Assembly (NCBI RefSeq): GCF_000223985.1
Contig: NZ_AFWV01000016.1
Span: 1-64,000, forward strand
Reading direction: 5' to 3'
Length of the DNA: 64,000 nucleotides
DNA from: Thiocapsa marina 5811
GTDB taxonomy: Bacteria; Pseudomonadota; Gammaproteobacteria; Chromatiales; Chromatiaceae
Under the pieces are notes generated by a model. That model did no database searches. It saw nothing but the letters and a program-made list of their open reading frames with translations, and had not been told where the DNA came from. Each line of letters starts with the position of its first letter. The first letter of the stretch is position 1. Positions 5,024-47,238 of this stretch are shown here, one piece after another. A program made the translations under genes and the position numbers.

Positions 5024-6001
5024 ATGCCGCCCTACATCGAGCTTGAGAACATGCCGAGCGCTGCCGTCATACCGGCGCTCTCACCACGCCCTCAACTGGA
5101 ACAGGGACTCACCGCGCGCAACGTCCACTCCTGGACTGTGTTCCTCGGGGAGCTCGTCGCTGCCGGACGGATCCGGATCGGCACCAGCCTGCCTGCGGTC
5201 ACATTGGAGCACCACGGCAACTGGCCGGGCATACACATCGAAGACTCATTCGGGATCGCGTCCGGCTGCCGGTTCACGCTTCGAATGGCGCTTGATCGCT
5301 GGTCCGAGATCGATCGTTCGAAAATGGATGCCGTCGGCCGAGACCGCCATTCGGATGTCTCCATCCTGGGTCGGGACGGTGCCCCCGTGCTCGATCTCGG
5401 TTTCGGCGAGGACCATAACGGGATCGCCTCCGACGTCCCGGCTCGATACGCTGCCAGGTGCCGGACCCCTTCCTGGTCCGAGCCGGCACCGAAGCGCAAT
5501 GGCGACGCCGAGGCGCTCGATCACGATCCGGCTCGTGGATGGGCGGCGTCGCCGGGCAATGCGGCCGATGTCGTCGATCCCGACGAAGCGATGGGACAAC
5601 TCCTGCTCAGTCCCGAAAGGCTGCGTGAACGCGGGTGCTTCAGCACCGTGGACGCCGCCCTCGTCCCCTGTTTCCTCGAAGCGCTCGCGGAGCAGGCGCT
5701 GCCGATTCGTATCGATACCGGAACCGCGGGGGTCGCTCACAGCCTCGACTGCACATTCTTCTGTCATCGACGCGAGGGCGCATGGCAGACCCTGAAGAGC
5801 GACTCGGCCCGCTTTCGAATCGACACATCGAAGATCGACTCGGCTTGGGTGTTGACGGTCTCCCAAGCGGCTCGTGAGCACTCCTCGCTCCGTCTCTACG
5901 ATACGCGAGGACGATTGCTGGCGAAGATCGGGGCAGTACCCGGATTCGTCGCCATTGAGAATCCGATCTGGCGCACCCTCGTCAACGCGCTTCAAGACTA
6001 A
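5024..6001 (+). CDS. HemS-like heme-utilisation protein (divergent)
   Basis: A cytoplasmic protein of 325 residues. Its C-terminal third aligns by eye with the HemS/ChuS heme-degrading factor family: a helix (ALVPCFLEALAEQALPIRI), a strand-rich region (SARFRIDTSKIDSAWVL), then SSLRLYDTRGRLLAKI and a final WRTLVNAL helix. HemS proteins bind and break down or pass on heme. The middle (about 110-185) is poorly conserved and low-complexity. The ATG at 5024 has AAGGAG upstream; the longer frame to 4556 overlaps the 86-residue gene and is rejected. The Fur-box promoter supports a heme/iron role. Its stop codon TAA is the first three bases of a palindromic repeat. Confidence 0.55.
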   Translation: MPPYIELENMPSAAVIPALSPRPQLEQGLTARNVHSWTVFLGELVAAGRIRIGTSLPAVTLEHHGNWPGIHIEDSFGIASGCRFTLRMALDRWSEIDRSKMDAVGRDRHSDVSILGRDGAPVLDLGFGEDHNGIASDVPARYAARCRTPSWSEPAPKRNGDAEALDHDPARGWAASPGNAADVVDPDEAMGQLLLSPERLRERGCFSTVDAALVPCFLEALAEQALPIRIDTGTAGVAHSLDCTFFCHRREGAWQTLKSDSARFRIDTSKIDSAWVLTVSQAAREHSSLRLYDTRGRLLAKIGAVPGFVAIENPIWRTLVNALQD

Positions 6002-6190
6002 ACCGCGTCCAGAGCGAAATGCTGACTTTCGAGTCGATTCGACGTTTGGTGCATCCACAGCCCCTAGCGAGGACGCGGTTTAAAATAATATATTTTTTAA
6101 TATCTTAAATCGCCCCCACTCCAGCGGTCAGCAGGTCTGCAGGGGCCGATCCCATCCAAAAACATCGCATACCGCGCCGGGCGCGGTTTA
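5999..6190 (+). repeat. composite palindromic repeat, copy 1 (A-linker-B)
   Basis: Module A: 12-bp arms TAAACCGCGTCC (5999-6010) and GGACGCGGTTTA (6071-6082) around about 60 bases. It is followed by an AT-rich linker of about 22 bases. Module B runs from TTAAATCGCCCC near 6105 to GCGCGGTTTA (6181-6190) and contains ATCGCATACCGCGCCGGGCG. The same architecture recurs at 10987, 12976, 19271, 38876, 40362, 41206 and 47046. The left arm supplies the TAA stop of the HemS-like gene. Confidence 0.85.
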
Positions 6191-6203
6191 AGAGGGAGAC
6201 TCC

Positions 6204-7763
6204 ATGCAGCGGCTTATTTTAGAGGTCGCCGACCAGGCTTCACGACTCGCGATCTATGACTTCGAGAGCCAGGAGCTGCTCGCCGAGGTCGAAGGTGCTT
6301 CATGGCATCGCATGTTCGAGGAGCTGCGAATCGGCAACGGGCCGCCCAAACACCCCTGCTGCGCGCGACATTCCGAGGGTCCGACGGATGAAAACATCCA
6401 ACAGGCCCGACGCGCACAGAGCAAGATCGCGCAGGCCCTCTTCCCGGAAACGGATGGGCTCGCGTCGCCGCCGATCGCACGCTCGCGCTCACTGCGCCCA
6501 TTGATCTCGGCCACAGCTTCTGCGGCGACAGTGACTGTGCAGCCCGACCCGGCGAGCCGTTTGCCGACCCTGAAATCGACCGGGCGGCGCAAGCTCTGGG
6601 ATGTCCCGCACAAGTACCATTGCCCGATAATCGGAACCTGTCTCACGGTGGACGAGCTGCGGCGCATCGCCGACCGGACTGCCCAGCGGCCCGATACGCC
6701 CTTGTCGGAGTTCGATATCCACGTGAGCTTTGTCGCGGCGGCGGCCGAGAAGAATCCGTTGTCGCTGGCGACACACAAGACACTGGAGAAGAAATTCACC
6801 CCGAGCGTTCGGCGCTATGCCAAGGCGCGCGACGCCGACGCGCTCCTGACGCTCTGGCGAGAATCGCTCGACACCGGGGAGGTTCCCGGCGGACTCTGGG
6901 CACTCATGACACACCCGCGTGCCGACATCCGGGTCATGACACGGGCATACGAGGAGATCCACATGCTGTCGCATCAGATCGGCGCCGGGCAGCGTGCAGA
7001 TCTCAAGCGGCTCACCGAGACCCGCACCCAGCTCGAGCAGCTGCAACGCGATTTCGATCGCCTCTACACACGCACCCGTCAACAGGCGGACCTGCGCGAA
7101 GCGAGGATCCGCGCGCTCGAGACCGCTCTGGCGAGCCGCGAGAGCGACTATGCCGAGTCTCGTGCGCAGGAACAGGCTCTACGCGAAGAGCTCGACCTGT
7201 TGACGGGTCCGCGCCTGAAGGACAGGCTCAAGGCTCTTGCCGATCGCGTCGCAAACCTGGACGCGGAGCGCAAGCGGATCCGCGAGGAGAACAAGAGCCT
7301 TCGACACGCAGGCACAATCGCACGACAGGAAGCCGACGCGGCGGAGTGCGCCAGGAGTGCGGCCGAAGCTCAATGCCGGGCGACCGAGCGACTGCTCGAG
7401 CATCTTCTGTCGGATCGGTGCGACGGCTGTACGTCGGAGGCGTGCGTTCGGCCCAAGGATCTTGCGGGGCGACTGGTACTCTTTGTCGGCGGGCGCAAAC
7501 AGCTCGTCGAGCAGTACCGGGCCATGGTGGCGGGCTGCAACGGTCGCTTCGACCACCACGACGGCGGCATGGAGGACAGCCAGCACCGGCTCGAGGCGAT
7601 GCTGGCCTCGGCCGATATCGTCGTCTGCGCAACCGACTACGTGAGTCACGGCGCCTACTATCGAACCAAACGGTTCTGCAAACGCACCGAGAAGCCGCAT
7701 GCCCTGCTGGGCAACTCGGGGCTGTCCTCGTTCGCCTTGGCGATCGAGAACTTTGCGGCCTGA
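6204..7763 (+). CDS. DUF2325 domain protein with long coiled coil
   Basis: The 519-residue product has three parts. An N-terminal region of about 240 residues includes the motif HKYHCPIIGTCLTVDELRRI. A long coiled coil (about 255-405) is rich in Arg/Glu/Leu/Ala. The C-terminal DUF2325 domain (about 425-517) contains LVLFVGGRKQLVEQYRAMV, FDHHDGG and ADIVVCATDYVSHGAYY. A cysteine group (CDGCTSEAC) precedes that domain. DUF2325 proteins have no settled function. The start has AGAGGGAGACTCC upstream. It follows the HemS-like gene, with repeat copy 1 between them, so co-transcription is uncertain. Confidence 0.75.
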   Translation: MQRLILEVADQASRLAIYDFESQELLAEVEGASWHRMFEELRIGNGPPKHPCCARHSEGPTDENIQQARRAQSKIAQALFPETDGLASPPIARSRSLRPLISATASAATVTVQPDPASRLPTLKSTGRRKLWDVPHKYHCPIIGTCLTVDELRRIADRTAQRPDTPLSEFDIHVSFVAAAAEKNPLSLATHKTLEKKFTPSVRRYAKARDADALLTLWRESLDTGEVPGGLWALMTHPRADIRVMTRAYEEIHMLSHQIGAGQRADLKRLTETRTQLEQLQRDFDRLYTRTRQQADLREARIRALETALASRESDYAESRAQEQALREELDLLTGPRLKDRLKALADRVANLDAERKRIREENKSLRHAGTIARQEADAAECARSAAEAQCRATERLLEHLLSDRCDGCTSEACVRPKDLAGRLVLFVGGRKQLVEQYRAMVAGCNGRFDHHDGGMEDSQHRLEAMLASADIVVCATDYVSHGAYYRTKRFCKRTEKPHALLGNSGLSSFALAIENFAA

Positions 7764-7873
7764 AGCGATCGCCCGCCTCGGCGAGCGCCGAGCTGCTCCG
7801 GAGGGTTGCCGAATCGGGCGAGGCAGGACGCCTAGCCGCCCGGCGAGTGGTCTCGCGAGTCGAGGCAAGGGCC

Positions 7874-9304: not shown

Positions 9305-9604
9305 GCCGGGATCAGCTCCACAGGTGATTTAGGCTCGGAAGGAAGAGCGATGTCGTCAAGGCGGGGGATTATCGCACTCGGAGCGTCAATGATCCACCAT
9401 GCCCGGCAGGACCTCGAGGCGATATGCCCGAGCATGCCCCGTGCGGCTAACTGCAGGGCAAGGAGCTCCCGAAGATGGTGAAGGTGTTTCGACAGGGAAA
9501 TAGGTTCGGAAGGGGTAGCAATCTCGACCTCGGCCGAAGGTTCACCGAGTATCGCGCTTCCGAAGGACGGGGCTGCGAGGTAGTGACAGCCCGCCCTTCG
9601 GCCA

Positions 9605-9664: not shown

Positions 9665-9677
9665 CCATGCGCAGGTA

Positions 9678-9836
9678 TCAAGCCCAGCCGAATCCCATCT
9701 GGAACACGACGGCGTGCAGCACCAGCGCGATGATCAACAGCATGAAGAAGATCGGCATCAGCCAGGTTGCGGGGTTCAGAACCAGCCATACCTTCCAATC
9801 GTCTTCCGGGTTTTTCGGTTTTGCGATTTCGCTCAT
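9678..9836 (-). CDS. pucA: LH2 antenna alpha subunit, second copy
   Basis: A 52-residue protein beginning MSEIAKPKNPEDDWKVWLV. The pattern KVWLVLNPATWL precedes a single membrane helix that carries the bacteriochlorophyll-ligating histidine in ALVLHAVV. It is too short for the default track but has the complete LH alpha pattern. It follows pucB2 by about 28 bases, giving a beta-alpha pair. Its sequence clearly differs from the first alpha (64 residues, longer C-terminus), so the two pairs could form LH2 complexes with different absorption. Confidence 0.85.
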   Translation of the reverse strand: MSEIAKPKNPEDDWKVWLVLNPATWLMPIFFMLLIIALVLHAVVFQMGFGWA

Positions 9837-9864
9837 GATCTTGCTCTCGTCGAAGTCGGGTTAA

Positions 9865-10005
9865 TTAGAACCAAGGATTGGCGGCGATAATGAACAGATG
9901 CACCAGCGCGGCAAGGCCGACATACGCGGTGTAGGTGATCTTGAACTGCTCCTGGAATTCCTTCGCTTGTTGTTCGGTCAAACCCGACAAGGATTGCTCG
10001 GCCAT
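9865..10005 (-). CDS. pucB: LH2 antenna beta subunit, intact copy
   Basis: A 46-residue protein, MAEQSLSGLTEQQAKEF at the N-terminus and LVHLFIIAANPWF at the C-terminus. The histidine in LVHLF is the expected BChl ligand and AANPWF is the usual LH2 beta ending. The ribosome binding site (GGAGATACATCG) is good. It pairs with the alpha gene at 9678. Comparison with this copy reveals the one-base deletion in the other beta gene at 10277-10419. Confidence 0.9.
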   Translation of the reverse strand: MAEQSLSGLTEQQAKEFQEQFKITYTAYVGLAALVHLFIIAANPWF

Positions 10006-10069
10006 CGATGTATCTCCGATAGAGAGGTGTAATTAGGGCGCGGCCTCAAGAAGGCGGCAGCCAAGTGTC

Positions 10070-10264
10070 TTATTGCGCAGGCGCTTCGACAGCGACCGGA
10101 GCAGCCGGCGTCCAGGCATTGCCCGGCAGCGAGAAGGCATAGACGTGAACGGCAAGAGCGATAACCAGCAGCGCGGCGAACATCGGGATCAGCCAGGTTG
10201 CGGGGTTGAGCACCAGCCAGATGCGATAGTCCTGCTCAAGAGGTTTGTAGTCGAATACGTTCAT
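10070..10264 (-). CDS. pucA: LH2 antenna alpha subunit, first copy
   Basis: The 64-residue product MNVFDYKPLEQDYRIWLV... has the LH alpha motif RIWLVLNPATWL, one membrane helix with the ligand histidine in LAVHVYAF, and a Pro/Ala-rich C-terminal tail (AAPVAVEAPAQ). It lies directly downstream of the frameshifted beta gene, so its normal partner would be missing if that frameshift is real; the beta from the second pair could substitute. Confidence 0.9.
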   Translation of the reverse strand: MNVFDYKPLEQDYRIWLVLNPATWLIPMFAALLVIALAVHVYAFSLPGNAWTPAAPVAVEAPAQ

Positions 10265-10276
10265 GGGTCTCTCCTC

Positions 10277-10419
10277 TTAGAACCAGGGGTTGGCGGCAAT
10301 GATGAACAGATGCACCAGCGCGGCAAGGCCGACATACGCGGTGTAGGTGATCTTGAACTCTCGTGAAACTCTTTCGCCTGCTGCTCGGTTAAACCCGAAA
10401 GGCTTGCTTGCTCAGCCAT
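10277..10419 (-). pseudogene. pucB: LH2 antenna beta subunit with one-base frameshift
   Basis: From the ATG at 10419 the frame reads MAEQASLSGLTEQQAKEFHE and then goes out of frame. From the next codon the other frame continues exactly as in the intact copy (QFKITYTAYVGLAAL...LVHLFIIAANPWF, stop at 10277). The span is 143 bases against the expected 144. One G appears to be missing next to position 10359, in the codon for the glutamine before FKITYTAY. It may be a recent inactivation or a sequencing error. Confidence 0.75.
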
Positions 10420-10986: not shown

Positions 10987-11178
10987 TAAACCGCGCCCGG
11001 CGCGGTATGCGATGTCTTTGGACGGGATCGGCCTCGGCAGACGTGACGACTCTTGGAGCCGGCGCGGTTTAAGGCATTAGAAAATGTTAAATGTTAAACC
11101 GCGTCTTACCGAGACCGAGGACGTCTCCAGAACCAAATGCAAAATGGAAACGGCGCATGTCGCTCCGGACGCGGTTTA
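10987..11178 (-). repeat. composite palindromic repeat, inverted copy 2 (B-linker-A)
   Basis: It starts TAAACCGCGCCCGGCGCGGTATGCGATG at 10987 (given here as its first 12 bases TAAACCGCGCCC plus the family sequence), closes module B with GGCGCGGTTTAA near 11070, has the AT-rich linker, then module A from TTAAACCGCGTC to GGACGCGGTTTA ending at 11178. It fills the gap between the puc head gene and the bacterioferritin 3' end. Confidence 0.8.
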
Positions 11179-12975: not shown

Positions 12976-13168
12976 GAAACCGGGTCCAGAGTGCAATGGG
13001 GCACTTTCATCTTGTGTCGGACTCGAGGATTTGTCCGATTTTCGTAGTGACGCGGTTTAGAATTCAACAATTTTCAATCTGTTAAACCGCGCCAGCTCCG
13101 ACACCTGTCGGAGCTGGCGCGGCCAAGCCGATCCAACAAACAACGCATACCGCGCCGGGCGCGGCTTA
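12976..13168 (+). repeat. composite palindromic repeat, copy 3
   Basis: Module A is degenerate at its left arm (AAACCGGGTCC near 12977) and ends GACGCGGTTTA. Module B (13083-13168) has an internal perfect 16-bp stem, CCGCGCCAGCTCCGAC with a 4-base loop, and a second palindrome CCGCGCCGGGCGCGG. Its right arm ends GCGGCTTA; read on the minus strand these bases are the TAA stop of the cytochrome c peroxidase gene. Frames in this gap (12730-13165) are otherwise unsupported. Confidence 0.8.
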
Positions 13169-14230
13169 GTTCGAAACGGGTAACGCCGAGAGATCGGGCC
13201 GCGGCGTCTCCGCCGTCTCTACAGGCAGGATCGGATATTCGATCGTCGGCTGCTCCCCGGTCAACGCGTGCAGGAAGGCGACGATCCGAGCCGCCTCTTC
13301 ATCCGAGATCTCGGTTCCGAGCTGCGCGGTTCCCATCAGCGCGACGGCCGCCCCCAGATCCCAAACCGCACCCGAATGGAAATACGGCGCCGTCAGAGCG
13401 ATGTTCCGAAGCGGTCCGGCACGAAAGACGTACTCGTCGGACACCGTATTGGTGACCTGGAAACGGCCCTTGTCGCCCGGCGGAAGGATATCGGCACCCG
13501 GCTTCGTGATAAGACCGAACGGGAAGTAGTCTTGCCCCCCGAAGTTGACGCCGGAGTGGCAGGCGCTGCAGCCCTTCTCGATGTAGAGATCGAGACCCTG
13601 CTTCTGCTCGTCCGTCATGGCCGCGTCGTTGCCCTCGATCCAATCATCGAAGGGCGATCCGGGCGTGACCAAGGTCACCTCGAACGCCTCGATCGCCTTG
13701 GCCATGTTGTCGAAGGTCACGGGGTCGGGCTCGTTCGGGAACGCCTTGGTAAAGCGCTCGACATATTCGGGGATGCTCTTGAGCGTCACGACGACGTTTT
13801 CCGGCTTGTTCGCCATCTCCACTCCGGCCTGAACCGGCCCCTTGGCCTGGGCCTTCAGGTCCTCGGCCCGACCGTCCCAGAACTGCGCCGCGTTGAACAC
13901 GGCATTCAGCACGGTCGGTGAATTCCTCGGGCCGGTTTGCCAGCCGTGACCGACCGACGTCGGGAGGTTGTCGTCGCCGCCCATGCCGAGGTTGTGACAG
14001 GTGTTGCAGCTGATGACCCCGCTTGCCGAAAGACGCGGATCCATGAACAACATACGTCCGAGATCGATCTTCTCCCGCGTCACGGGATTGCCGGCCACCT
14101 CGGGCACGCCTGCGGGGATCGGGAGAAGTCCCGCGGATTTCGCCTTCTCGCGCAGAGCCGAATCGTCCGCCGCAACCAGGGTCGCAACGAACCCCATCGA
14201 AACGGCCAAGGCGATCATTGTCTTCTTCAT
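13166..14230 (-). CDS. ccpA: diheme cytochrome c peroxidase (CcpA/MauG family)
   Basis: The 354-residue periplasmic protein has a signal peptide (MKKTMIALAVSMGFVATLVA) and two c-type heme motifs, CNTCH in the N-terminal domain and CSACH in the C-terminal domain, with family stretches LGRMLFMDPRLSASG, FWDGRAEDLKAQAKGP and RNIALTAPYFHSGAV. It reduces hydrogen peroxide using cytochrome c electrons. Length is normal for the family. The neighbouring bacterioferritin genes make a common oxidative/iron-stress role plausible. The stop codon lies in the arm of repeat copy 3. Confidence 0.92.
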   Translation of the reverse strand: MKKTMIALAVSMGFVATLVAADDSALREKAKSAGLLPIPAGVPEVAGNPVTREKIDLGRMLFMDPRLSASGVISCNTCHNLGMGGDDNLPTSVGHGWQTGPRNSPTVLNAVFNAAQFWDGRAEDLKAQAKGPVQAGVEMANKPENVVVTLKSIPEYVERFTKAFPNEPDPVTFDNMAKAIEAFEVTLVTPGSPFDDWIEGNDAAMTDEQKQGLDLYIEKGCSACHSGVNFGGQDYFPFGLITKPGADILPPGDKGRFQVTNTVSDEYVFRAGPLRNIALTAPYFHSGAVWDLGAAVALMGTAQLGTEISDEEAARIVAFLHALTGEQPTIEYPILPVETAETPRPDLSALPVSN

Positions 14231-17415: not shown

Positions 17416-17559
17416 AGCAGGCGTTCGACCAACGGCGGGGTGAGCTTTCGGGCTTCTCCGTCGCTGGCCGCCTGCCTTCACCCTTCACCCTTCAGCGGTT
17501 CGATCTGTTGGCAATGTGCGCGTTCCACCTCCACCTGCCTGAGCGCAAACGTCCGTTCC

Positions 17560-17596
17560 CATCCGAAAACATCGCATATCGCGCCGGGCGCCGTTA
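17560..17596 (+). repeat. remnant of composite repeat (module B right end)
   Basis: ATCCGAAAACATCGCATATC followed by GCGCCGGGCGCCGTTA matches the right half of module B of the repeat family with a few changes. No module A is left. Confidence 0.6.
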
Positions 17597-19270: not shown

Positions 19271-19464
19271 TTTAAACCGCGTCCAGAGCGAGACGCTGAC
19301 TTTCGAGTGAGCTCGACGTTTAACGCATCCACGGCCATTCGTGGGGACGCGGTTTAAAATGATATCTTTTTAATGCCTTAAACCGCGCCGTCTGCTGCGG
19401 TCGTCGAGTCTGACCGAGCCAATCCCATTGAAAAATATCGCGTACCGTGCCGAGCGCGGTTTAA
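19271..19464 (+). repeat. composite palindromic repeat, copy 4, inside an ABC exporter gene pair
   Basis: Module A runs from TTTAAACCGCGTCC (19271) to GGGGACGCGGTTTA, then an AT-rich linker, then module B from TTAAACCGCGCC to GCGCGGTTTAA (19464). Read on the minus strand, its end supplies the TAA stop of the ATPase gene (19461-19463). It separates the ATPase from its permease. Confidence 0.85.
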
Positions 19465-25302: not shown

Positions 25303-25386
25303 TTAAACTGTTCCAGCTCAGACAGTTATCGGACGTGACGCAGCCGAGCGAAGCCAACAAACGACGCATACCGCACCGTGCGCAGT

Positions 25387-25389
<3 letters not shown>
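25303..25389 (+). repeat. decayed composite repeat (module B only)
   Basis: TTAAACTGTTCCAGCTC at the left, AACAAACGACGCATACCGC inside and GTGCGCAGTTTA at the right correspond to module B with many substitutions. The right arm supplies the TAA stop (25387-25389, minus strand) of gdhA. The rest of the 25122-25386 gap holds nothing recognisable. Confidence 0.6.
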
Positions 25390-26790
<1,401 letters not shown>

Positions 26791-26908
26791 TCAGGTGATG
26801 CGCGATAGGACCGCGTTGTGTCAGGCGCCAACATAATGCGTCGGCGATCGGTCCGCAATGTCCAGTCGGCGCGCTCTCGCGCGAATGCGGCGCCAATCCT
26901 CTTTGCGC

Positions 26909-27085
26909 GCGGCGCGGAGCGCCAGGTGAGGTGCAACACCGCGGAGCGGTGTCACAAGAACAGGTAGGCGATATCGCGGAGCAGTTCTCGAGCCCGCAGC
27001 CGTCAGCCGTCAGACCAACACCGGTTCCGCGTAGCTCGTGACACCCGCTCAGCGGTGTCACGCATCCCCTGGCGCTCTGCGCCAC
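26909..27085. repeat. REP elements upstream of the transposase
   Basis: Two palindromic pairs, GGCGCGGAGCGCCA with CACCGCGGAGCGGTGTCAC at 26909-26955 and GTGACACCCGCTCAGCGGTGTCAC with GGCGCTCTGCGCCA at 27038-27085, lie in opposite orientation. The same two palindromes occur downstream of the transposase and at 28135 and 29804. This is the usual arrangement of REP sequences around their transposase. Confidence 0.75.
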
Positions 27086-27160
27086 GTCCGCCGCGATTCA
27101 GCTCATCACGGGACGAACGATCGGCTAACATACACGAAATGATATACTCATGGAGCACCC

Positions 27161-27694
27161 ATGGCCCGGACACGCTATCGGTTCGCCTCGCCTGATCAAC
27201 CCCATTTCATGACCAGCACCGTCGTCGAATGGCTGCCGATCTTCACTCGCCCCGAAACCGCGCAACTGGTATTCGACTCCTGGGCATATCTGCAGGCGCA
27301 TGAAGGGCTGCGTATCTACGGCTTCGTTGTGCTGGAAAACCACCTGCATATCGTGGCTCAGGCGCCGAACCTACCGGATGTCTGGCGGCGCTTCAAATCG
27401 TACTCGGCCCGCACGCTCATTGATCTGCTTGAGGAGCAGGGCGCAAGACGGCTCTTGGATCGCATGGGGTTCACGTTCAAAGCGCGGCGCGGCGATCGCG
27501 CGTATCAACTCTGGCAGGAGGGGTCACATCCACAATGCATCGAGGGTGAAACCATGTTGCGACAGAAGCTGGAATACATCCACAACAATCCGGTCAAGCG
27601 AGGGTTTGTGGATGATCCCGAGCATTGGTGTTGGTCAAGCGCTCGTTCTTATGCGGGACGCGCAGGGGTGGTGGACGTGTACCGGGATTGGTGA
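27161..27694 (+). CDS. REP-associated tyrosine transposase (RAYT, Y1 family)
   Basis: A 177-residue single-stranded-DNA transposase related to IS200/IS605 TnpA. It has the HUH motif in VLENHLHIVAQ and the family-diagnostic EYIHNNPVKRGFV near the C-terminus, then HWCWSSARSY. RAYTs are single-copy domesticated transposases thought to mobilise REP sequences. REP palindromes flank the gene on both sides. Its last 18 codons are repeated twice more downstream. Confidence 0.9.
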   Translation: MARTRYRFASPDQPHFMTSTVVEWLPIFTRPETAQLVFDSWAYLQAHEGLRIYGFVVLENHLHIVAQAPNLPDVWRRFKSYSARTLIDLLEEQGARRLLDRMGFTFKARRGDRAYQLWQEGSHPQCIEGETMLRQKLEYIHNNPVKRGFVDDPEHWCWSSARSYAGRAGVVDVYRDW

Positions 27695-27997
27695 GCTGGT
27701 CTCGGGGCGCGGAGCGCCAGGGGATGCGTGACACCGCTGAGCGGTGTCACGAGCTAAGCGCTCGTTGTTACGCGGGACGCGCAGGGGTGGTGGACGTGTA
27801 CCGGGATTGGTGAGCTGGCCTCGGGGCGCGGAGCGCCAGGAGATGCGTGACACCGCTGAGCGGTGTCACGAGCTAAGCGCTCGTTGTTACGCGGGACGCG
27901 CAGGGGTGGTGGACGTGTACCGGGATTGGTGAGCTGGCCTCGCGCCGCTGAGCGCCAGGGGATGCGTGACACCGCTGAGCGGTGTCACGAGTTACGG
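27641..27997 (+). repeat. three tandem 119-bp units (RAYT 3' end plus REP)
   Basis: Units start at 27641, 27760 and 27879. Each holds the last 18 or so codons of the transposase (ending AGVVDVYRDW and TGA), then GGCGCGGAGCGCCAG, then GTGACACCGCTGAGCGGTGTCAC. Differences are few (for example GTTCTTATG versus GTTGTTACG), so the duplication is recent. Confidence 0.9.
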
Positions 27998-27998
27998 G

Positions 27999-28104
27999 CT
28001 GGTGGCTGGGTGGCTGGGTGGCTGGGTGAGTGGCTGGGTGGCTGGGTGAGTGGCTGGGTGGCTGGGTGGCTGGGTGGCTGGTGGCTGGTGGCTGGTGGCT
28101 GGTG
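27999..28104 (+). repeat. G/T-rich minisatellite
   Basis: About a dozen units of GGCTGGGT or GGCTGGGTGAGT, then four units of GGCTGGT. No coding potential; it is inserted between REP elements. Confidence 0.9.
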
Positions 28105-28134
28105 GGATATCGCGTAACCCACATCCCCATTCTT

Positions 28135-28181
28135 GTGACACCGCTCCGCGGTGTCGCACCTCTACTGGCGCTCCGCGCCAC
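28135..28181. repeat. REP pair
   Basis: GTGACACCGCTCCGCGGTGTCGCA followed by TGGCGCTCCGCGCCA, the inverse orientation of the pair after the transposase. Confidence 0.75.
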
Positions 28182-28229
28182 GTGCCTAAAATCAGGAGTG
28201 TCTCAAGCAAGTCTCGCGGAGTGTCGGCG

Positions 28230-29213
28230 TCATCCCACCGGCATACGCGGCGGCGCGGTGCGCCGGATCAGGTCGATGTCGTCCTCGCTCAGGCGGTAGG
28301 CCTGACTCACCAGACCGGAGAGACGGCGTTCGAGAGCGCGGATCTCGGCGGCGCGCTGTTGCATGGGACCGGCGTAGCAGGCGTGGGTGTCGGTCAGCTC
28401 GCCGATGCTGGCGGAAGTCAGCCTGGGCGCACCCTTGGGTCGACGCTTGCGGACCTCGGCGACAAAGGCTTCGCCGCTCAGGTTGGCGAACCCTTCGAGC
28501 TGTTGGCCCGGTTTCTCGACAGCGAATTCGTAGCGCAGCCAGTTGAGCAGCTCGCAGGTTTGGGTGCGGGACTCGGTGGCGCGGGCGAACAGCGTGGCGA
28601 CCTTGTCCTCGGTCTCGGCGCGGAGCTCCGGTGTGGGCTCGGCGATGGGGAGTGATGCCATGAAGGTTCCGAACAGACGCAGCGCCTCGTCCTTGCCGTG
28701 CCGCGCAGCCGTCCCATCAGCGCCTCGACCTCGGGCGATTCCAGGCTCCAGGGGCCGGCGTCGTATCGGCTCCAGGGCACCGGATAGGTGTGCTCGTGGA
28801 CATAGTGCTCCAGCGACAGCTCGGTGGAGCGGTCGCGCGGAACCGGGCAGACGCTCACCATGGGCGGCTCGGCCGGAACGGCCGCGGTCCGCGGCCCCGC
28901 GCCCGAACCGCCGCCGTCGTCCGCCCCGTTCTCCGATGGCGCGGATCTCGGCCGGGCGACGATGATGCAGGGGAAGGTGTCCGCATCCTCGAAGATGGGC
29001 GCATGGCCGAAATCGAGGATCTCCTCCAGGACGGCGCGCTCGCTGAAGAGACGTCGCAGCGGCTCGCCGTAACCGGCGCGCAGCCACTTGTTGGTCACGA
29101 TGTAGCTGAGCGCGCCGCGCGGTCTTGAGCCAGAGACTCAGCTTGGTGATCTCGACGGATTCCGGGTTGAGGTCGACCCCGAAGACCTTCCAGCCTGCTT
29201 CGACATTGCATCA
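28230..29213 (-). pseudogene. decayed type IIG restriction-modification (Eco57I-like N6-methylase) gene
   Basis: Pieces of one protein are spread over two or three minus-strand frames. First comes [20 protein letters not shown] near 29210-29130. Next is TNKWLRAGYGEPLRRLFSE with ILDFGHAPIFEDADTFPC from about 29098. Last is a C-terminal helical part with CELLNWLRYEFAVEKPGQQ and LSEDDIDLIRRTAPPRMPVG ending at 28230. These are landmarks of Eco57I/PglX-like methylases. At least two frameshifts and a deletion between the first two blocks (including the catalytic NPPY) mean it is inactive. Confidence 0.7.
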
Positions 29214-29227
29214 CATGGCCCCTGATC

Positions 29228-29244
29228 GTACAGTTACCTGTACA
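29228..29244 (+). promoter_or_regulatory. YefM-YoeB operator palindrome
   Basis: GTACAG-TTAC-CTGTAC is a perfect inverted repeat 20 bases upstream of the antitoxin start and includes TGTACA (29239-29244). TGTACA-core palindromes are the known binding sites of YefM in E. coli, so autorepression by the toxin-antitoxin complex is inferred. Confidence 0.6.
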
Positions 29245-29263
29245 GTAGCGAGAGGCAATCCGC

Positions 29264-29515
29264 ATGAATACGATGACCTATACCGAGATCCGACGCAGGC
29301 TGGCCGAGACGATGGAACGGGTCTGCGACGACCATGCCCCGATCATCGTCACCCGGAAGAACTCTCGTTCGGTGGTCGTGATGTCGTTGGAAGACTTCGA
29401 GGCCCTCGAGGAAACGGCTTACCTCTTGCGCAGCCCGACCAATGCACGCCGCCTCCTGGAGTCGATCGCGGAGCTCGAAGCCGGCGGCGGAACCGAGCGA
29501 GCGCTCGCGGAATGA
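29264..29515 (+). CDS. yefM: antitoxin YefM (Phd/YefM family)
   Basis: An 83-residue protein with the Phd/YefM DNA-binding N-terminus ([16 protein letters not shown]), the strand [23 protein letters not shown] and a flexible C-terminus that would wrap the toxin ([15 protein letters not shown]). It binds the palindrome upstream and neutralises YoeB. Stop and toxin start overlap as ATGA. Confidence 0.92.
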
Positions 29516-29766
29516 GGCTCGTCTTCTCCGAGCGCGCATGGGAAGATTATCTCTATTGGCAGGGCGCCGATCGCAAGATCCTCCTTCGGATCAACAGACT
29601 CATCGGCGACATCCAGCGAGCGCCCTTCGCTGGCTTGGGCAAACCCGAGCCGCTCAAGCACGGTTTGGCAGGCTATTGGTCACGACGTATCAACGACGAG
29701 CACCGTCTCGTCTACAAGGTCGAGGAACACACCCTGCTACTGGCACAGTTGCGTTACCACTACTGA
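29512..29766 (+). CDS. yoeB: toxin YoeB (RelE superfamily mRNA interferase)
   Basis: An 84-residue ribosome-dependent endoribonuclease. The catalytic residues fall at the E. coli positions: Glu46, Arg65, His83 and Tyr84 (C-terminus RYHY). [12 protein letters not shown] and [15 protein letters not shown] are family landmarks. It appears intact. The pair sits in the accessory island between a dead restriction gene and REP arrays. Confidence 0.94.
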
Positions 29767-29803
29767 CTCTTGCCTGGCGAGCATGGTCGATCGACGGAAC
29801 GCG

Positions 29804-29992
29804 TGGCGCGGAGCGCCAGGGGATGCGTGACACCGCAGAGCGGTGTCACGAGCTATATATCCACTTTCGCGAGCTATATATCCACTTTCGCGAGCTATAT
29901 ATCCACTTTCGCGAGCTATATATCCACTTTCGCGAGCTATATATCCACTTTCACGCGCCATATCCCCACTTGCGACACCGCGGAGCGGTGTC
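29804..29992. repeat. REP pair interrupted by five 21-bp tandem repeats
   Basis: Left REP: GGCGCGGAGCGCCAG and GTGACACCGCAGAGCGGTGTCAC. Then five identical 21-bp copies starting at 29850, 29871, 29892, 29913 and 29934 (unit GAGCTATATATCCACTTTCG plus C), a degenerate sixth, and a right half-REP GACACCGCGGAGCGGTGTC. The unit contains the self-complementary TATATA. No gene is here. Confidence 0.9.
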
Positions 29993-38287: not shown

Positions 38288-38878
38288 ATGCCAGTATCCA
38301 CTTGGAGCCGCGCCCTATGCGTCTGTCTCCTGATCGGGATGTTCCCGAGCCTGCCGCTCCATGCCGAAGAGGTCCGCTCCGAGAGCATGCTCGCCAACAC
38401 CTGCGCCGGCTGTCACGGCACGCTCGGCGCCAGCGCCGGCGAGGTCATGCCGACCATCGGCGGGATGGACAAGGGCTACCTCGTCGAGGTGCTCACCGAC
38501 TACAAGACCGGTCGGCGACCCTCGACCATCATGGGTCGCATCATGCAGGGCTACGGCGACCGGGAGATCAGCGCGATCGCGAGCTTCTACGCCGCGCAGC
38601 CGTGGGTCTCCACCGACCGTGTGGCCGTCGCGGATCAGCTCGCCGAGGCGCCGGCCTTGCATGAGCGCTACTGCGAGAGCTGTCATCAGGACGGCGGGCG
38701 CTCGCAGGATGCCGAATCGCCTCGCATGGCCGGGCAGTGGGCGGGCTATCTGCAGTACGCCATGCAGGCCTGTCGCGACGGCGAGCGCTGCCACCCGCGC
38801 AAGATGAGAAACCGCGTCGCGGAGCTCTCGGATGCGCAGATCGCGGCCCTCGCCCATTTCTACGAGAGTCAGAAGTAA
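38288..38878 (+). CDS. fccA: flavocytochrome c sulfide dehydrogenase, diheme cytochrome subunit
   Basis: A 196-residue periplasmic cytochrome with a signal peptide ending LPLHAEE and two CxxCH motifs: CAGCH in the first domain and CESCH in the second. It accepts electrons from the FAD subunit during sulfide oxidation and passes them to soluble cytochrome c. It precedes fccB as in other Chromatiaceae. Its stop codon TAA is the first three bases of palindromic repeat copy 5, which lies between the two subunit genes. Confidence 0.88.
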   Translation: MPVSTWSRALCVCLLIGMFPSLPLHAEEVRSESMLANTCAGCHGTLGASAGEVMPTIGGMDKGYLVEVLTDYKTGRRPSTIMGRIMQGYGDREISAIASFYAAQPWVSTDRVAVADQLAEAPALHERYCESCHQDGGRSQDAESPRMAGQWAGYLQYAMQACRDGERCHPRKMRNRVAELSDAQIAALAHFYESQK

Positions 38879-39065
38879 ACCGCGTCCAGAGCGAGAGGCT
38901 CATTTTCGAGTGGGTTCGACCTTTGGTGCAGCCACAGCTCTTAGCGGGGACGCGGTTTAGAATTATATATTTTTCATTAACTTAAACCGCGCCGACTCTA
39001 GCGGTCCTCAAGTCTGCCGGGGCCGATCCCATCCAAAAAATCGCATACCGCGCCGGGCGCGGTTT
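38876..39065 (+). repeat. composite palindromic repeat, copy 5, between fccA and fccB
   Basis: Module A: TAAACCGCGTCC (38876-38887) to GGGGACGCGGTTTA. Then an AT-rich linker (TTATATATTTTTC) and module B from TTAAACCGCGCC to GCGCGGTTTC (39065). It supplies the fccA stop codon and ends 15 bases before the fccB ATG, so the fccB ribosome binding site (AGAGGATCGACAGG) follows it directly. Confidence 0.88.
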
Positions 39066-39080
39066 CAGAGGATCGACAGG

Positions 39081-40364
39081 ATGAAAACACTGACCCGTAG
39101 AACCTTCCTTCACGCCTCCGCGCTGTCCACGGCCGCCGTGCTCGGCGGCCCATCGCTCGCCGTCCATGCCGCAACCCCGCCGAAGGCGCGCGTGGTCGTG
39201 GTCGGCGGCGGTTACGGCGGCGCCATCGCGGCCAAATATCTTCGGATGTCGGACCCGGACATCCGCGTCACCTTGATCGAAAAAGACTCGGCCTACGTCT
39301 CCTGCCCGCTCAGCAACGAGGTGCTCGGCGGCGAGCGCGATCTGGCCAGCCTCACCTTCGATTACCGCGGCCTGACCCGGCGCGGGATCGCCGTGATGCA
39401 GGACACCGTCATCGAGATCGACCCGGCACAACATGTCGTCAAAGGTGCCGGCGGCAACCGGTACAACTACGACAAGTTGATCGTCTCGCCCGGGGTGGAT
39501 TACGACTGGGCGGCAATCGAAGGCATGTCCGAGGCGGTGGCCGAACGCATCCCGCATGCCTGGAAGGCCGGCAAGCAGACCCAAATCCTGCGCAGACAGT
39601 TGGAGGCGATGGAGGACGGCGGCGTCTTCTACATCGTCGCACCGCCGAATCCGTTCCGCTGTCCGCCGGGCCCCTACGAGCGCGCGGCGCAGGTCGCGCA
39701 CTATTTCTCGACCCACAAGTCCAAATCCAAGATCGTGATCCTCGACGCCAAGGACGCCTTCTCCAAACAGGGCCTCTTCCAGGCCGGTTGGCAGGAGCAC
39801 TACGGGGACATGATCGAATGGGTCTCGGGGGCGCAGGGCGGGATCATCGAGGCGATCGATCCCGAGACGCGGACCTTGATGGGGTCGTTCGAGGAATTTC
39901 GGGGCGACGTGATCAACCTGATCCCGCATCAGAAGGCCGGCGCACTCGCGCAAACCGCCGGACTTGCGAATGAATCGGGCTGGTGTCCGGTCGATCAGCG
40001 AACCTTCGAGTCGTCGATCCACAAGGACATCCATGTGATCGGCGATGCCTGCATCGCCGGGGCCATGCCGAAATCGGGCTACTCGGCCAACTCGCAGGGC
40101 AAGGTCTGTGCTGCTGCCGTCGTCGCCGCGATCAACGGCGACGCGCCACCTGCGCCGTCATACGTCAACACCTGCTACAGCATCATCGCACCCGAGCACG
40201 GCATCTCGGTCGCGGGTGTCTATCGGCTCGACGACGGGCGCATCGTGGACATCCCCGGTGCGGGCGGGGTCTCGCCGGCCGACGCGGACGCCCGCACGCG
40301 CGCGCTCGAGCAGCAGTTCGCGCTGGACTGGTTCCGTAACATCACCTCGGATATGTTCACCTAA
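39081..40364 (+). CDS. fccB: flavocytochrome c sulfide dehydrogenase, FAD subunit
   Basis: A 427-residue flavoprotein of the sulfide:quinone reductase/FCSD family. It has a twin-arginine signal (RRTFLHASALSTAA), the FAD-binding VVVVGGGYGGAIAAKYL, the cysteine expected to bind FAD covalently (AYVSCPLSNEVLGG) and two cysteines that form the redox disulfide (NPFRCPPGPYERA and YVNTCYSII). It oxidises sulfide to sulfur in the periplasm together with FccA. The stop codon is taken from repeat copy 6. Confidence 0.93.
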   Translation: MKTLTRRTFLHASALSTAAVLGGPSLAVHAATPPKARVVVVGGGYGGAIAAKYLRMSDPDIRVTLIEKDSAYVSCPLSNEVLGGERDLASLTFDYRGLTRRGIAVMQDTVIEIDPAQHVVKGAGGNRYNYDKLIVSPGVDYDWAAIEGMSEAVAERIPHAWKAGKQTQILRRQLEAMEDGGVFYIVAPPNPFRCPPGPYERAAQVAHYFSTHKSKSKIVILDAKDAFSKQGLFQAGWQEHYGDMIEWVSGAQGGIIEAIDPETRTLMGSFEEFRGDVINLIPHQKAGALAQTAGLANESGWCPVDQRTFESSIHKDIHVIGDACIAGAMPKSGYSANSQGKVCAAAVVAAINGDAPPAPSYVNTCYSIIAPEHGISVAGVYRLDDGRIVDIPGAGGVSPADADARTRALEQQFALDWFRNITSDMFT

Positions 40365-40554
40365 ACCGCGTCCGGAGCGACACGCGTCGTTTTGATTGTG
40401 CGTTTGCCTTCGGAGTGATTCTCGATCCCGGTGAGACGCGGTTTGGAATTTAAGATTTATTAATACCTTAAACCGCGCCAGCTCCGACGGTTGTCGGAGA
40501 TGGCGCGGCCAAACCACTCCAAGAAACGACGCATTCCGCACCGGGCGCGGTTTA
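40362..40554 (+). repeat. composite palindromic repeat, copy 6
   Basis: TAAACCGCGTCC starts at 40362 and gives fccB its TAA stop. Module A ends GAGACGCGGTTT, then the linker, and module B runs from TTAAACCGCGCCAGC, with GCTCCGAC/GTCGGAGA as inner stem, to GGGCGCGGTTTA (40554). Confidence 0.87.
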
Positions 40555-40583
40555 CGTGTGATGCGACAGCACGGGGGAACATC

Positions 40584-41165
40584 ATGACTCCAGCACACCC
40601 GAGCCCGGCGACGCTCCACCTTGCACTGCTCGGCCTGATCGGACTTGCACTGCTCGGGCCGTCGACGGCAGTGAACGCGCAGCCGGAGGTTGACCCGGCG
40701 AGCGCACCGCAAGTCGACGCGTCGCGTCTTCAAGCGCTGGAGCAGCGTGTCGCGGACCTGGTGCGACGTGTCGAACGCCTGGAATCCGCGCCGAGCGCGG
40801 GGGCCTCGACGCCGTCGACATCCAAGGCCGGCGAGATCCACTGGACCTTCGATGCCGCACTGAGCCGGAGTCCGTTCAACGTGACGCACCAGAGCTTCGA
40901 TCGAGGATCCGGACGCTTCGACATCTTGCTCAAGGTCGTGGAGCCGCTTGCGGATCCACTCCCTTGGCAAGTGGCGACCGGCGCAGAGGTACCCGTCGTC
41001 GCCCGAATCGGACTTGCGGACGGCACCGCAAGCGAGGGCCTCGTCTTTCGCCTGGCCCGCGGGCCGCGGCTCGAGCCGGGCGCCATCCTCCACCTCGAGG
41101 CCTACGTCCCGATCGAGCAGGCCGGGGCGATCAGCGGCCTGTCGGTCGGCATGCGTCGGGAGTGA
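40584..41165 (+). CDS. exported hypothetical protein with coiled coil
   Basis: A 193-residue product with a signal peptide (LALLGLIGLALLGPSTAVNA), a short coiled coil (LQALEQRVADLVRRVERLE) and a beta-rich C-terminal domain (GRFDILLKVVEPL, ASEGLVFRLARGP). GGGGGA precedes the ATG. It follows fccB after repeat copy 6 and could be part of the sulfide oxidation locus. I do not recognise the family. Confidence 0.7.
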   Translation: MTPAHPSPATLHLALLGLIGLALLGPSTAVNAQPEVDPASAPQVDASRLQALEQRVADLVRRVERLESAPSAGASTPSTSKAGEIHWTFDAALSRSPFNVTHQSFDRGSGRFDILLKVVEPLADPLPWQVATGAEVPVVARIGLADGTASEGLVFRLARGPRLEPGAILHLEAYVPIEQAGAISGLSVGMRRE

Positions 41166-41205
41166 GCAGGCTCGGGATCCGGACGACGCCTCGCGGCAAC
41201 CGGCC

Positions 41206-41398
41206 TAAACCGCGCCCGGTGCGATATGCGTCGTTTGTTGGATTGGCTTGGCCGCGCCAGCTCCTACAGCCGCCGGAGCTGGCGCGGTTTAGGGGATTAA
41301 AAAATATAAACTTTTTGAACCGCGTCTCCACAAAGATCGGAACACCCTTAGGCCCGACACAAAATGAAAACGACACATGTCGCTCTGGACGCGGTTCA
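41206..41398 (-). repeat. composite palindromic repeat, inverted copy 7
   Basis: Module B first (TAAACCGCGCCCGGTGCG at 41206 to GCTGGCGCGGTTTA), AT-rich linker, then module A (TGAACCGCGTC to GGACGCGGTTCA at 41398). The C-for-T change in the last arm makes it a TGA stop codon instead of TAA for the minus-strand gene that ends here. Confidence 0.85.
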
Positions 41399-41731
41399 AT
41401 GCGTGCCGAGCCGACGCGTTTTCACGAGATCGCCGCGATAGTCGACGAAGTCCATCATGTGCGCCCCGAGACGCGCGGCATAGTCCTGCGGTGACGGCGT
41501 ATCGTGGGGGTCGATGCTGCGGTCGTGGGCCAGATCCGGCTCGACCATCTCCACGGTGACATAGGCAAGCAGCCCCTCGGCGATCAGATTGGCGGCCTCG
41601 CATTGCCACTGAGGGCGCTCTCGATCCAAGAGCGCCTGTTGGTCCTCGCCGAGGGTGCCGGCGCGCAACGCCGTCCAGCTATCGATCAAGAGCCTGATCA
41701 GCTCGTCTTCGTTTGATTCAAAGTCGTTCAT
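41396..41731 (-). CDS. small acidic cytoplasmic protein, unknown function
   Basis: The 111-residue product MNDFESNEDELIRLLIDSW... is helical and acidic with no signal peptide, and contains DRERPQWQCEAANLIAEGLL and YAARLGAHMMDFVDY. The C-terminus (GDLVKTRRLGTH) ends in the arm of repeat copy 7. The much longer frame to 43048 is an artefact. I do not recognise the family. Confidence 0.6.
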   Translation of the reverse strand: MNDFESNEDELIRLLIDSWTALRAGTLGEDQQALLDRERPQWQCEAANLIAEGLLAYVTVEMVEPDLAHDRSIDPHDTPSPQDYAARLGAHMMDFVDYRGDLVKTRRLGTH

Positions 41732-42480: not shown

Positions 42481-43167
<687 letters not shown>

Positions 43168-43239
43168 GGCACTTTGCACGCTCGGACCAGTAAACTGACG
43201 GCGTTTCCTCACCTGACCGATACCGCCCGTCACAACCTT

Positions 43240-44199: not shown

Positions 44200-44326
44200 G
44201 TCCGCCCCCCTCGATACAAGCCGCCGCCGACCGATGGATCCCGGATCCAGCGGTTGGCCGCGTCGCGCCGCGGGCGAGGCTTTCGCGCCGTCGAGGATCT
44301 TGCTCAGCCGACGGATCCGGGGTCGA

Positions 44327-44488
44327 TCAGGCGTGCGGCTCCTCGTCGTCGCGTTTGACCTCGCGAGAAGGGTCATCGTCCGGGCGATGCCGATCGCGTC
44401 GCGAGGCGATGAACTGGGAGTAGATCAACCAGGCGGCGAGCGCCATGAATCCGTAAAATTCAATTGCCTTTAACCCATTACCGTCCAT
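44327..44488 (-). CDS. small single-pass membrane protein
   Basis: A 53-residue product starting MDGNGLKAIEFYGFMALAAW with one membrane helix, then an Arg-rich and acidic tail (FIASRRDRHRPDDDPSREV). GGGGA lies 8 bases upstream. It resembles small assembly or accessory subunits such as CcoQ in layout, but nothing specific supports that. Too short for ordinary gene tracks. Confidence 0.5.
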   Translation of the reverse strand: MDGNGLKAIEFYGFMALAAWLIYSQFIASRRDRHRPDDDPSREVKRDDEEPHA

Positions 44489-44651
44489 TCTGTGTTCCCC
44501 GATCAAGGTGGCGCGGGTTCGTTGAAGCGACCCGCGACAAGCCCGTTGTCCAGCGTCGCATCTGCGCGCCCGTCATCGCCCCCGTCACCTCGCGTTCATC
44601 CGAGTCTTTTACTATGCTGGCACGACCGACGACGGACACACGGAGAACCCG

Positions 44652-47048
44652 ATGACGACAAGCACCCTCTCCACGACCGAGATCGCCGCCAATCCCCTGT
44701 CCTCCGAGCTCCTGACCAGGATCGATGCCTACTGGCGCGCCTGCAACTACCTCGCCGCCGGCATGATCTATCTGCAGGACAACCCGCTGCTGCGCGAGCC
44801 GCTCGCCGAGGGCCATCTGAAGAAACGACTGCTCGGTCATTGGGGTGCAAGCCCCGGCCTGTCCTTCATGTATGTCCACCTCAACCGCATCATCCGCGAG
44901 CAGGCGCAGGAGGCGATCTTTCTCGCCGGTCCGGGCCACGGCGCGCCGGGCGTGCTTGCCCCGGTTTATCTGGAGGGCACCTATTCCGAGATCTACCCCA
45001 ACAAGAGCGAGGATGAAGAAGGCATGCGCGCCTTCTTCAAGCAGTTCTCCTTCCCGGGCGGCATCGGCTCGCACTGCACGCCCGAGACACCGGGCTCCAT
45101 CCACGAGGGCGGCGAGCTGGGTTACTCGATCTCGCATGCCTTCGGCGCCGCCTTCGACAATCCGGACCTTCTGGTCGCCGTGGCGGTCGGCGACGGCGAG
45201 GCCGAGACGGGCCCGCTCGCAACCTCCTGGCATTCCAGCAAGTTCCTCAATCCCATCCGCGACGGCGCGGTGCTGCCGATCCTCCATCTGAACGGCTACA
45301 AGATCAACAACCCGACCCTGCTCGCACGCATCCCGCGCGAGGAGCTTGCCGAGCTGATGCGCGGCTACGGCTGGACGCCCTACTTCGTCGAGGGCGACGA
45401 CCCGATGCTGCTGCACCAGACGATGGCGGCAACGCTTGACGCATGCCTTTCGCGAATCCGCGGCCTCCAGCAGGAGGCACGCACGAGCGGCGAAGCGACG
45501 CGCTGCCGTTGGCCCATGATCGTGCTTCGCACGCCCAAGGGCTGGACCGGCCCCGCGGAGGTCGACGGCAAGAAGGTCGAGGGCTTCTGGCGTGCGCATC
45601 AAGTGCCTCTGTCGGGCATGCACAACAACCCGGCGCATCTCGAGCAGCTCGAAGGCTGGATGCGCAGCTACAAACCGGAGGAGTTGTTCGACAGCACCGG
45701 CAAACTGATCCCGGAGCTGCGCGCGCTTGCGCCCGAGGGGACGCTGCGCATGAGCGCCAACCCGCACGCGAACGGCGGTTTGCTGCGCAGGGCACTACGA
45801 ATGCCCGACTTCCGCGAGTACGCCCTGGATGTCGCCGAGCCGGGGAAGATCCGCGCGATGAATACCAAGCCGACGGGCGCCCTGCTGCGCGACGTGATGG
45901 CGAAGAACATGGACAACTTCCGGGTGTTCGGTCCGGACGAGAACACCTCGAACAAGCTCGATGCCGTCTACGAGGTCTCCAAAAAGCTCTGGCTCTGCGA
46001 CTACAAGCCGGAGGATGCCGACGGCGGCGAGCTCTCGCCGGACGGGCGCGTGCTCGAGATGCTCTCCGAGCACACCTTGGAGGGCTGGTACGAAGGCTAT
46101 GTCCTGACCGGTCGACATGGTTTCTTCGCGACCTACGAGGCCTTCGTCCATGTCATCGACAGCATGTACAACCAGCACGCCAAGTGGCTGGCGATCTGCG
46201 AGGAGATCCCCTGGCGGGCACGCATCTCCTCGCTGAACCTCTTGATCACCTCCACCGTCTGGCGCCAGGACCACAACGGCTTCACCCATCAGGATCCGGG
46301 GTTTCTGGATGTCGTGGTCAACAAGAATCCGCAGGTGACCCGCATCTATCTGCCCCCGGACGTCAACACACTGCTCTCCACGGTCGACCACTGCCTGCAG
46401 AGCCGCGACGACATCAACGTGATCGTGGCCGATAAACAGAACCATCTCCAATACCTGGACATGGATGCCGCCATCAAGCACTGCACCAAGGGCATCGGGA
46501 TCTGGGATTGGGCGAGCAACGATCAGGGTGTCGAGCCCGACGCCGTCATGGTCGGCTGCGGCGACATCCCCACCAAGGAGGCACTGGCCGCAACCGCGCT
46601 GCTGCGCGAGCACTTCGCCGACATCCGACTGCGCTTCATCAATGTCGTGGACCTCTTCCGCATGCAACCCGCGGGGGAGCATCCGCACGGGCTCAGCGAT
46701 CACGACTTCGACAGCCTCTTCACCAAGGATCGGCCGGTGATCTTCAACTTCCACGGCTATCCCTGGCTGATCCATCGCCTCGCCTACCGCCGCACCAACC
46801 ACAAGAACCTGCACGTGCGCGGCTACAAGGAAAAGGGCAATATCAACACGCCGCTGGAGCTGGCCATCGAGAACGAGATCGACCGCTTCAGCCTCGCGAT
46901 CGACGTCATCAACCGGGTCCCGCGCCTGCAGGTCGCGGGTGCACATGTGAAGGAGAAGCTGCGCGACATGCAGATCGACTGCAGAAACTACGCACACGAG
47001 CACGGCATCGACAAGCCCGATGTCGATGACTGGATTTGGCCCTTCTAA
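44652..47048 (+). CDS. xfp: phosphoketolase (Xfp/Xpk)
   Basis: A 798-residue thiamine diphosphate enzyme that cleaves xylulose-5-phosphate and/or fructose-6-phosphate to acetyl phosphate. Landmarks are [15 protein letters not shown], the ThDP/Mg region [20 protein letters not shown] and the phosphoketolase-specific [10 protein letters not shown]. Length is normal. GGAGAACCCG precedes the start. The TAA stop is the first codon of repeat copy 8. With glgP downstream it suggests a route from stored glycogen to acetyl-P. No acetate kinase is nearby. Confidence 0.95.
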
Positions 47049-47238
47049 ACCGCGTCCGAAGCGACATGCTCATTTTCGAGTGAGCTCGACGGTTGATGCA
47101 TCCACGGCCCTTAGCGGGGACGCGGTTTAGAATACTATATTGTTTAATCGCTTAAACCGCGCCAGCTCCGACAGTCGTCGGAGCTGGCGCGGCCAAGCCA
47201 TTCCAACAAACGACGCATACAGCGCCGGGCCCGGTTTA
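47046..47238 (+). repeat. composite palindromic repeat, copy 8, between xfp and glgP
   Basis: TAAACCGCGTCC (47046) gives the phosphoketolase its stop codon. Module A ends GGGGACGCGGTTTA, the linker is AT-rich, and module B contains a near-perfect CCGCGCCAGCTCCGAC stem and ends CCCGGTTTA at 47238. Confidence 0.87.

Follow-up and report, generated by a model that had tools for sequence, protein, structure and literature searches.

Twin-hairpin repeats of Thiocapsa marina 5811: stop-codon docking and arm pairing within separate modules

The 64,000-nucleotide stretch of the Thiocapsa marina 5811 genome analyzed here (the window) raises the question of what a palindromic repeat recurring between its genes is and why it has been kept. 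An earlier note had described eight main copies with an A-linker-B order, lying in both orientations and only between genes. All eight were found in their places and aligned end to end in this order over 196 columns with a mean column identity of 79%, six on the + strand and two (10987 and 41206) on the − strand. In 1.70 Mb of this genome, with genes called by a simple codon-usage script, none of 140 sites lies within a called gene and one overlaps one. That the repeat belongs to no named REP, ERIC or MITE family also agreed with our searches, as Rfam 15 gave no repeat match in the window at gathering score (and just weak matches, all under gathering scores, across 38800-41500) and no description of it was found in the open-access literature searched. 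At gathering score, Rfam 15 matched the window once, to a cobalamin riboswitch (− strand, 63597-63819, 104.5 bits). What the earlier note missed is the docking of the repeat on stop codons, its freely diverging interior and the pairing of its arms within modules.

Design and distribution of the repeat

The unit of the repeat is a module of 84-86 bp, in which inverted arms of 11-12 bp (TAAACCGCG...CGCGGTTTA) enclose about 60 bp of variable sequence, and the 193-bp composite consists of two such modules joined by a 23-bp AT-rich linker. Exact cores AACCGCG/CGCGGTT lay at a spacing of 80-82 bp in 132 cases across 1.664 Mb of the genome, and core distances of 186-190 bp, which stem from composites, occurred 41 times, the linker appearing as one sharp peak. 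Of 109 composites, 57 have a linker of 23 nt, and the linkers are 79% A+T. Allowing one mismatch gave 188 modules in the same 1.664 Mb, 53 of them outside the main interior cluster (36 with exact cores). With about 0.1 exact pairs and 1.9 one-mismatch pairs expected by chance per distance, the one-mismatch modules among these may be largely due to chance. Modules with TG/CA ends lie mostly outside that cluster (23 of 27), and we infer that they form an older set. Across 39 oriented composites, A and B agree at about 25 positions of their outer ends, TAAACCGCG(T/C)CC.G.GCG..ATGCG, while the inner ends have the arm alone in common. The composite design described earlier is thus real, yet lone modules are common, because 80 of the 140 sites hold one module, 57 hold two and 3 hold more; likewise, the perfect inner stem CCGCGCCAGCTCCGAC holds for one B subtype and not as a feature of all copies.

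About 430 modules are carried by the genome as a whole: AACCGCG and CGCGGTT are paired at module spacing 430 times (1 in the control), and the exact end TAAACCGCGYCC has 454 matches against 2 for its reversed control. Within the window, TAAACCGCGTCC with up to two mismatches has 41 matches, compared with a mean of 5.0 and a maximum of 10 in 100 shuffles. Among 116 genomes of the family, paired cores number 318, 196 and 374 in three congeners and 284 and 106 in two other genera, with 0 to 5 in the remaining 110 (controls 0 to 7). A scan of named genomes placed module matches in Thiocapsa, Thiobaca, Thiocystis, Lamprocystis and other Chromatiaceae among the 80 of 105 stretches listed. The search of other Chromatiaceae proposed in the earlier note therefore recovered the same design, the A-linker-B layout being seen also in records of Thiobaca, Thiocystis, Lamprocystis and other members of the family. 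A match in the cyanobacterium Laspinema among the listed stretches was dismissed as chance; it sits within a 471-aa ORF, presumably ClpX-like.

Placement at stop codons and empty sites in relatives

Six of the eight main copies in the window are docked, that is, an end of the element is the exact stop codon of a neighbouring gene. In the composite at 5999..6191 (+; first module 5999-6082, the second with a degenerate 5' arm), the upstream + gene, with its ORF ending at 6001, has its stop in the element's TAA at 5999-6001. The composite at 12976..13168 (+; A 12976-13059, B 13083-13168) supplies with its right end the stop for the − gene 13166-14230, and the empty site in the relatives G023 and G102 reads TAG. 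At 38876..39068 (+; A 38876-38959, B 38983-39066) a + gene takes its stop codon from the left end, and the copy is also present in G102 and G071; at 40362..40554 (+; A 40362-40445, B 40469-40554) the left end stops gene 39081-40364 in a copy also present in G102, the site being empty (TGA) in G071. The composite at 41206..41398 (−; B 41206-41291, A 41316-41398) terminates a − gene with its right end, at a place where G023 has a single module. Finally, the left end of the composite at 47046..47238 (+; A 47046-47129, B 47153-47238) stops gene 44652-47048; this locus is empty (TGA) in G102 and G071 and in G023 (C1 near 1539300) carries one lone B module belonging to a different subtype, suggesting that the site was used repeatedly or that replacement took place. 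The composite at 10987..11178 (−; B 10987-11071, A 11095-11178) is docked on no called gene. Docking is doubtful for the composite at 19273..19463 (+; A 19273-19356, B 19379-19463), since the ORF that terminates at its right end was passed over in gene calling; in relatives, 46-75 nt of unrelated sequence occupy this locus, which was placed in no class.

Three further places had been described as remnants. Two are derived from B, namely a 3'-end fragment at 17553..17595 (+, 91% to 6146-6188) and a degenerate module at 25303..25389 (+, from repeat comparison and alignment), but alignment identified the third, at 2888..3074, as an old copy with both modules (2888-2968 and 2990-3074). The window also holds a second, unrelated repeat cluster at 26905-29992, with palindromes containing GACACCGC.GAGCGGTGTC and GGCGCGGAGCGCC; a 119-bp tandem repeat lies at 27637-28003, a GGCTGGGT-type repeat at 27988-28091 and a 21-bp tandem repeat with AGCTATATATCCACTT at 29825-29992. 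Two adjacent near-identical stretches at 9713-10359 (95% over 83 bp) are, we take it, probably duplicated light-harvesting genes.

By position, the 140 sites divide into 81 between tandem genes, 46 between convergent genes, 12 between divergent genes and 1 gene overlap. The expectation by free bases was 77.9 tandem, 25.3 convergent and 35.8 divergent, and that by number of regions was 98.0, 20.6 and 20.4, so divergent regions hold fewer sites than expected on either count. An element end coincides with the exact stop codon of the neighbouring gene at 74 of 139 sites, compared with 18.6 expected from intergenic YTAR sites, and tetranucleotide-matched docking gave 66 against 17.7, or about four times the rate expected from the available sites. 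The flanks are YTAR-like at 123 of the 139 sites. Since any TAR read in frame already encodes a stop, an element docked at YTAR implies that the stop codon existed before it arrived. Presuming a TA duplication, the 75 docked ends would revert to TAG in 44 cases, TAA in 28 and TAC in 3, and the genes at these last three may have been shortened. The element shows no preferred orientation toward the gene on which it docks (A end 10, B end 10). Docking was also observed in relatives (G102, 17 of 29; G023, 14 of 25; G071, 3 of 5) and in other genera (Thiobaca, 7 of 16; Thiocystis, 4 of 5; further Chromatiaceae, 4 of 6), with none in the small samples of G033 (0 of 3) and Lamprocystis (0 of 2).

Relatives provide precise empty sites at loci filled elsewhere. 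Nine such sites, a tally that leaves out two empty-like matches at 95613, read TA in three cases (C62:399889, 12976 and a G023 composite with a TG/CA end), TG in five (47046, 94475, G102:200511, and 40362 and 10987, these two read by eye from looser projections) and CA in one (C61:18422). The last six thus read TG or CA where the filled copies carry TA at each end. As a source of the TG, normal replacement of one stop codon by another seems too infrequent, as TAA or TAG stops of other genes are TGA in 5 of 65 orthologs. A tentative possibility, on which we would put only limited weight, is an element that targets stop codons, splits or replaces the host stop, supplies its own at both ends, and later persists under selection as a double hairpin at the end of the message. 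TGA at the docked empty sites 47046, 94475 and 40362 would then mean that the stop codon, rather than the TA dinucleotide, is the target.

Terminal inverted repeats are present at the ends of the mobile unit, as in an IS630/mariner-type MITE. Among the six DDE_3 loci of the genome, none has these ends within about 1.5 kb, and none of eight Y1_Tnp loci is flanked by these arms, one of them having a TG/CA module about 1.3 kb away. A search for a partner transposase through ends 250-3500 bp apart returned five pairs, which looked chance-like by eye. Modules can be lost or replaced, as seen at 41206 and 47046 in relatives, perhaps through the short direct repeats made by the arms.

The TIR-like outer ends of about 25 bp, the YTAR preference, the empty sites in relatives and the many similar copies would all be expected of an ordinary MITE with no function, which survives outside genes, meets stop codons as harmless targets and owes its arms to a recently active transposase; docking at about four times the expectation from available sites speaks against this reading, which we regard as unlikely. 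If the repeat instead worked as DNA, its arms bound by protein or forming an extruded cruciform that helps to organise the chromosome or adjust supercoiling locally, and gene ends were simply where it is tolerated, then its neutral orientation, its free interior and the fixed spacing of 84-86 bp, about eight helical turns, would fit, whereas docking precisely on stop codons and the low number of sites between divergent genes would be left unexplained by such a role alone.

Pairing and conservation of the arms

Complementarity between the arms stays at 0.90-0.98 between the terminal T and the tenth base, values that the module search influenced at the core and left free at other positions, and falls to 0.82 at the eleventh base, 0.70 at the flanking base and approximately background beyond. 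Where each arm stands one mismatch from the core, the change is identical in 35 of 123 pairs, compared with 8 of 87 and 7 of 93 at control spacings. We ran the test for compensatory stem changes that the earlier note had proposed on 185 distinct composites from this genome, sister strains and other records, shared copies being counted repeatedly and left and right following the orientation of the record as distinct from A and B. Paired core changes numbered 13 in the left module, 17 in the right, 0 between the two outer arms and 3 between the two inner arms, with shuffle means of 0.9 to 1.8, indicating that changes are compensated within modules. The 70 composites of this genome alone gave 6 left, 6 right, 0 outer-outer and 0 inner-inner. 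The modules, with nine core types, vary independently: TA/TA left with TG/CA right occurs 9 times, the reverse 3 times and TG/CA in both 10 times. At the second base, with TG in both modules, outer-outer and inner-inner counts were 10 and 12 (shuffled 3.1 and 3.3) and counts within modules were 21 and 29.

Replication template switching, which corrects imperfect inverted repeats by changing both arms, could produce compensation free of selection, and the few half-changed states of the second module base (TG/CA 27, TG/TA 1, TA/CA 2) are what it would leave. However, the inner arms, about 23 bp apart, should then be corrected best, and only 3 of 114 deviant cells are paired there (shuffled mean 1.5); nor does this mechanism produce slow arm evolution. 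We therefore consider it highly improbable, and compensation within modules argues instead for two separate hairpins. The compensated arms are spread over many types, including 7 singletons in this genome, which also weighs against the functionless MITE.

In predicted folds of single modules, the closing stem forms in 338 of 402. By contrast, predicted folds of whole composites have outer-outer plus inner-inner pairing in 83 of 109 and within-module pairing in 12 of 109. Outer-outer pairing, favoured by RNA folding, was rejected as the working fold with its 0 compensated core changes, and we assume folding during transcription to square within-module pairing with the whole-composite folds. An ordinary intrinsic terminator was likewise rejected, because the outer stems lack a T-run and docking is orientation-neutral: runs of at least five T within 18 nt were found after outward-facing stem ends at a frequency of 0.00 and after linker-facing ends at 0.29. 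Among core mismatches on the sense strand, G-U outnumbers A-C by 21 to 7 (two-sided binomial about 0.013, calculated by hand for a comparison chosen after the fact), which disfavours a DNA-level role, and the G-U excess over all positions, 81 to 67, is not significant. In composites, none of the compensated changes falls in the GCG part of the core, as would be expected of base-specific binding. On balance, we judge action as DNA to be rather unlikely, even a little more so than survival as a functionless MITE.

At ten loci shared between strains, taken as one pair per locus, the terminal nine arm bases changed at 9 of 342 positions (2.6%) and the interior at 159 of 1157 (13.7%; Fisher 2e-10), so that arms at fixed shared loci evolve about five times more slowly than interiors. 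Arm positions 10-12 changed at 12 of 114, the linker at 26 of 211 and the 22-nt flanks at 44 of 440. Since the copy used to find a locus was in effect chosen for good arms, changes were also counted only in the strain not used for finding it, giving 7 against 23.5 expected (P 4e-5). Nine of the ten loci are docked, and conserved coding flanks ease their finding, so this proportion is no measure of retention. Inner arms (5 of 162 changed) do not differ from outer arms (3 of 162). Given that a transposase should need no inner arms, their being kept as well as the outer ones points to retention as separate hairpins and runs counter to the expectation for a MITE without function. Read from the sequences, these rates suggest that selection has kept the hairpin stems intact, and the slower change of arms than of interiors also counts against the functionless MITE.

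Known elements and a proposed role at message ends

The repeat resembles CIR in its two-arm design, BIME in its placement and RUP/Correia in its ends, with a full match to none. REP/BIME are dispersed paired palindromes at gene ends, rare between divergent genes and thought to affect mRNA 3' ends. The Thiocapsa repeat shares the paired palindromes at gene ends and the scarcity between divergent genes, but has another sequence, larger modules, 60-nt loops, clean insertion sites and TA-like ends, and its arms flank no RAYT (Y1) transposase at the eight loci. Integron attC sites have conserved inverted ends and a variable middle close behind a stop codon, all of which recur here, whereas the Thiocapsa repeat is dispersed over the genome, outside cassette arrays. 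According to the available part of PMC2229807, the CIR of Caulobacter and Brucella are intergenic elements of about 110 bp with two inverted-repeat arms, a linker, terminal TA and GANTC sites in the loop; as far as this part goes, two paired arms with a linker are common to both, and the Thiocapsa repeat differs in its 193 bp, 60-nt variable loops, many lone modules and stop-codon docking. RUP, Correia/NEMIS and ERIC, in the portions of PMC2229807 and PMC10969869 at hand, are short bacterial elements with inverted ends and terminal TA, and the transcripts of NEMIS and ERIC are substrates for processing by RNase III or RNase E. Set against these accounts, the Thiocapsa repeat has two independently paired modules in place of an end-to-end stem and no partner like IS630-Spn1 among its six DDE_3 loci; the same portions make no mention of exact stop-codon docking for RUP, Correia/NEMIS or ERIC. 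Exact docking on stop codons together with selection on separate modules is unusual among small dispersed palindromic elements.

We lean, with modest confidence, toward a MITE-like element that is kept as separate hairpins at message ends, where it acts as an mRNA 3'-end structure. This reading builds directly on the observed design, intergenic placement, docking, slow evolution of inner and outer arms and compensation within modules; that RNA and not DNA is the acting form, that mRNA ends are affected and that an ancestral transposase existed would follow from it. A transposon-derived element would have spread across several Chromatiaceae genera, mostly to intergenic YTAR sites, and would have been retained above all where it docked on a stop codon, its terminal TAA or TGA ending the upstream gene. 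Each module of 84-86 bp would be maintained as its own hairpin, with a closing stem of 11-12 bp around about 60 nt of free sequence, and the mRNA 3' end would thus carry one hairpin, or two separated by an AU-rich linker, straight after the stop codon. Such hairpins may protect the end of the upstream message, or mark it for processing or termination. Protection or processing of the 3' end is favoured by the docking, the few divergent sites, the separate stems and the AU-rich linker. Such effects are reported for the RNAs of ERIC and NEMIS (PMC2229807, PMC10969869). BIMEs offer a further parallel.

Small palindromic repeats are often regarded as transposon debris with occasional effects. With hundreds of copies, copies shared by sister strains and a decay series in one genome set, selection on this repeat can be read from sequence alone. 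The repeats may thus offer, in culturable purple bacteria, a testable case of repeats becoming general parts of mRNA 3' ends, and of a mobile element that would target stop codons.
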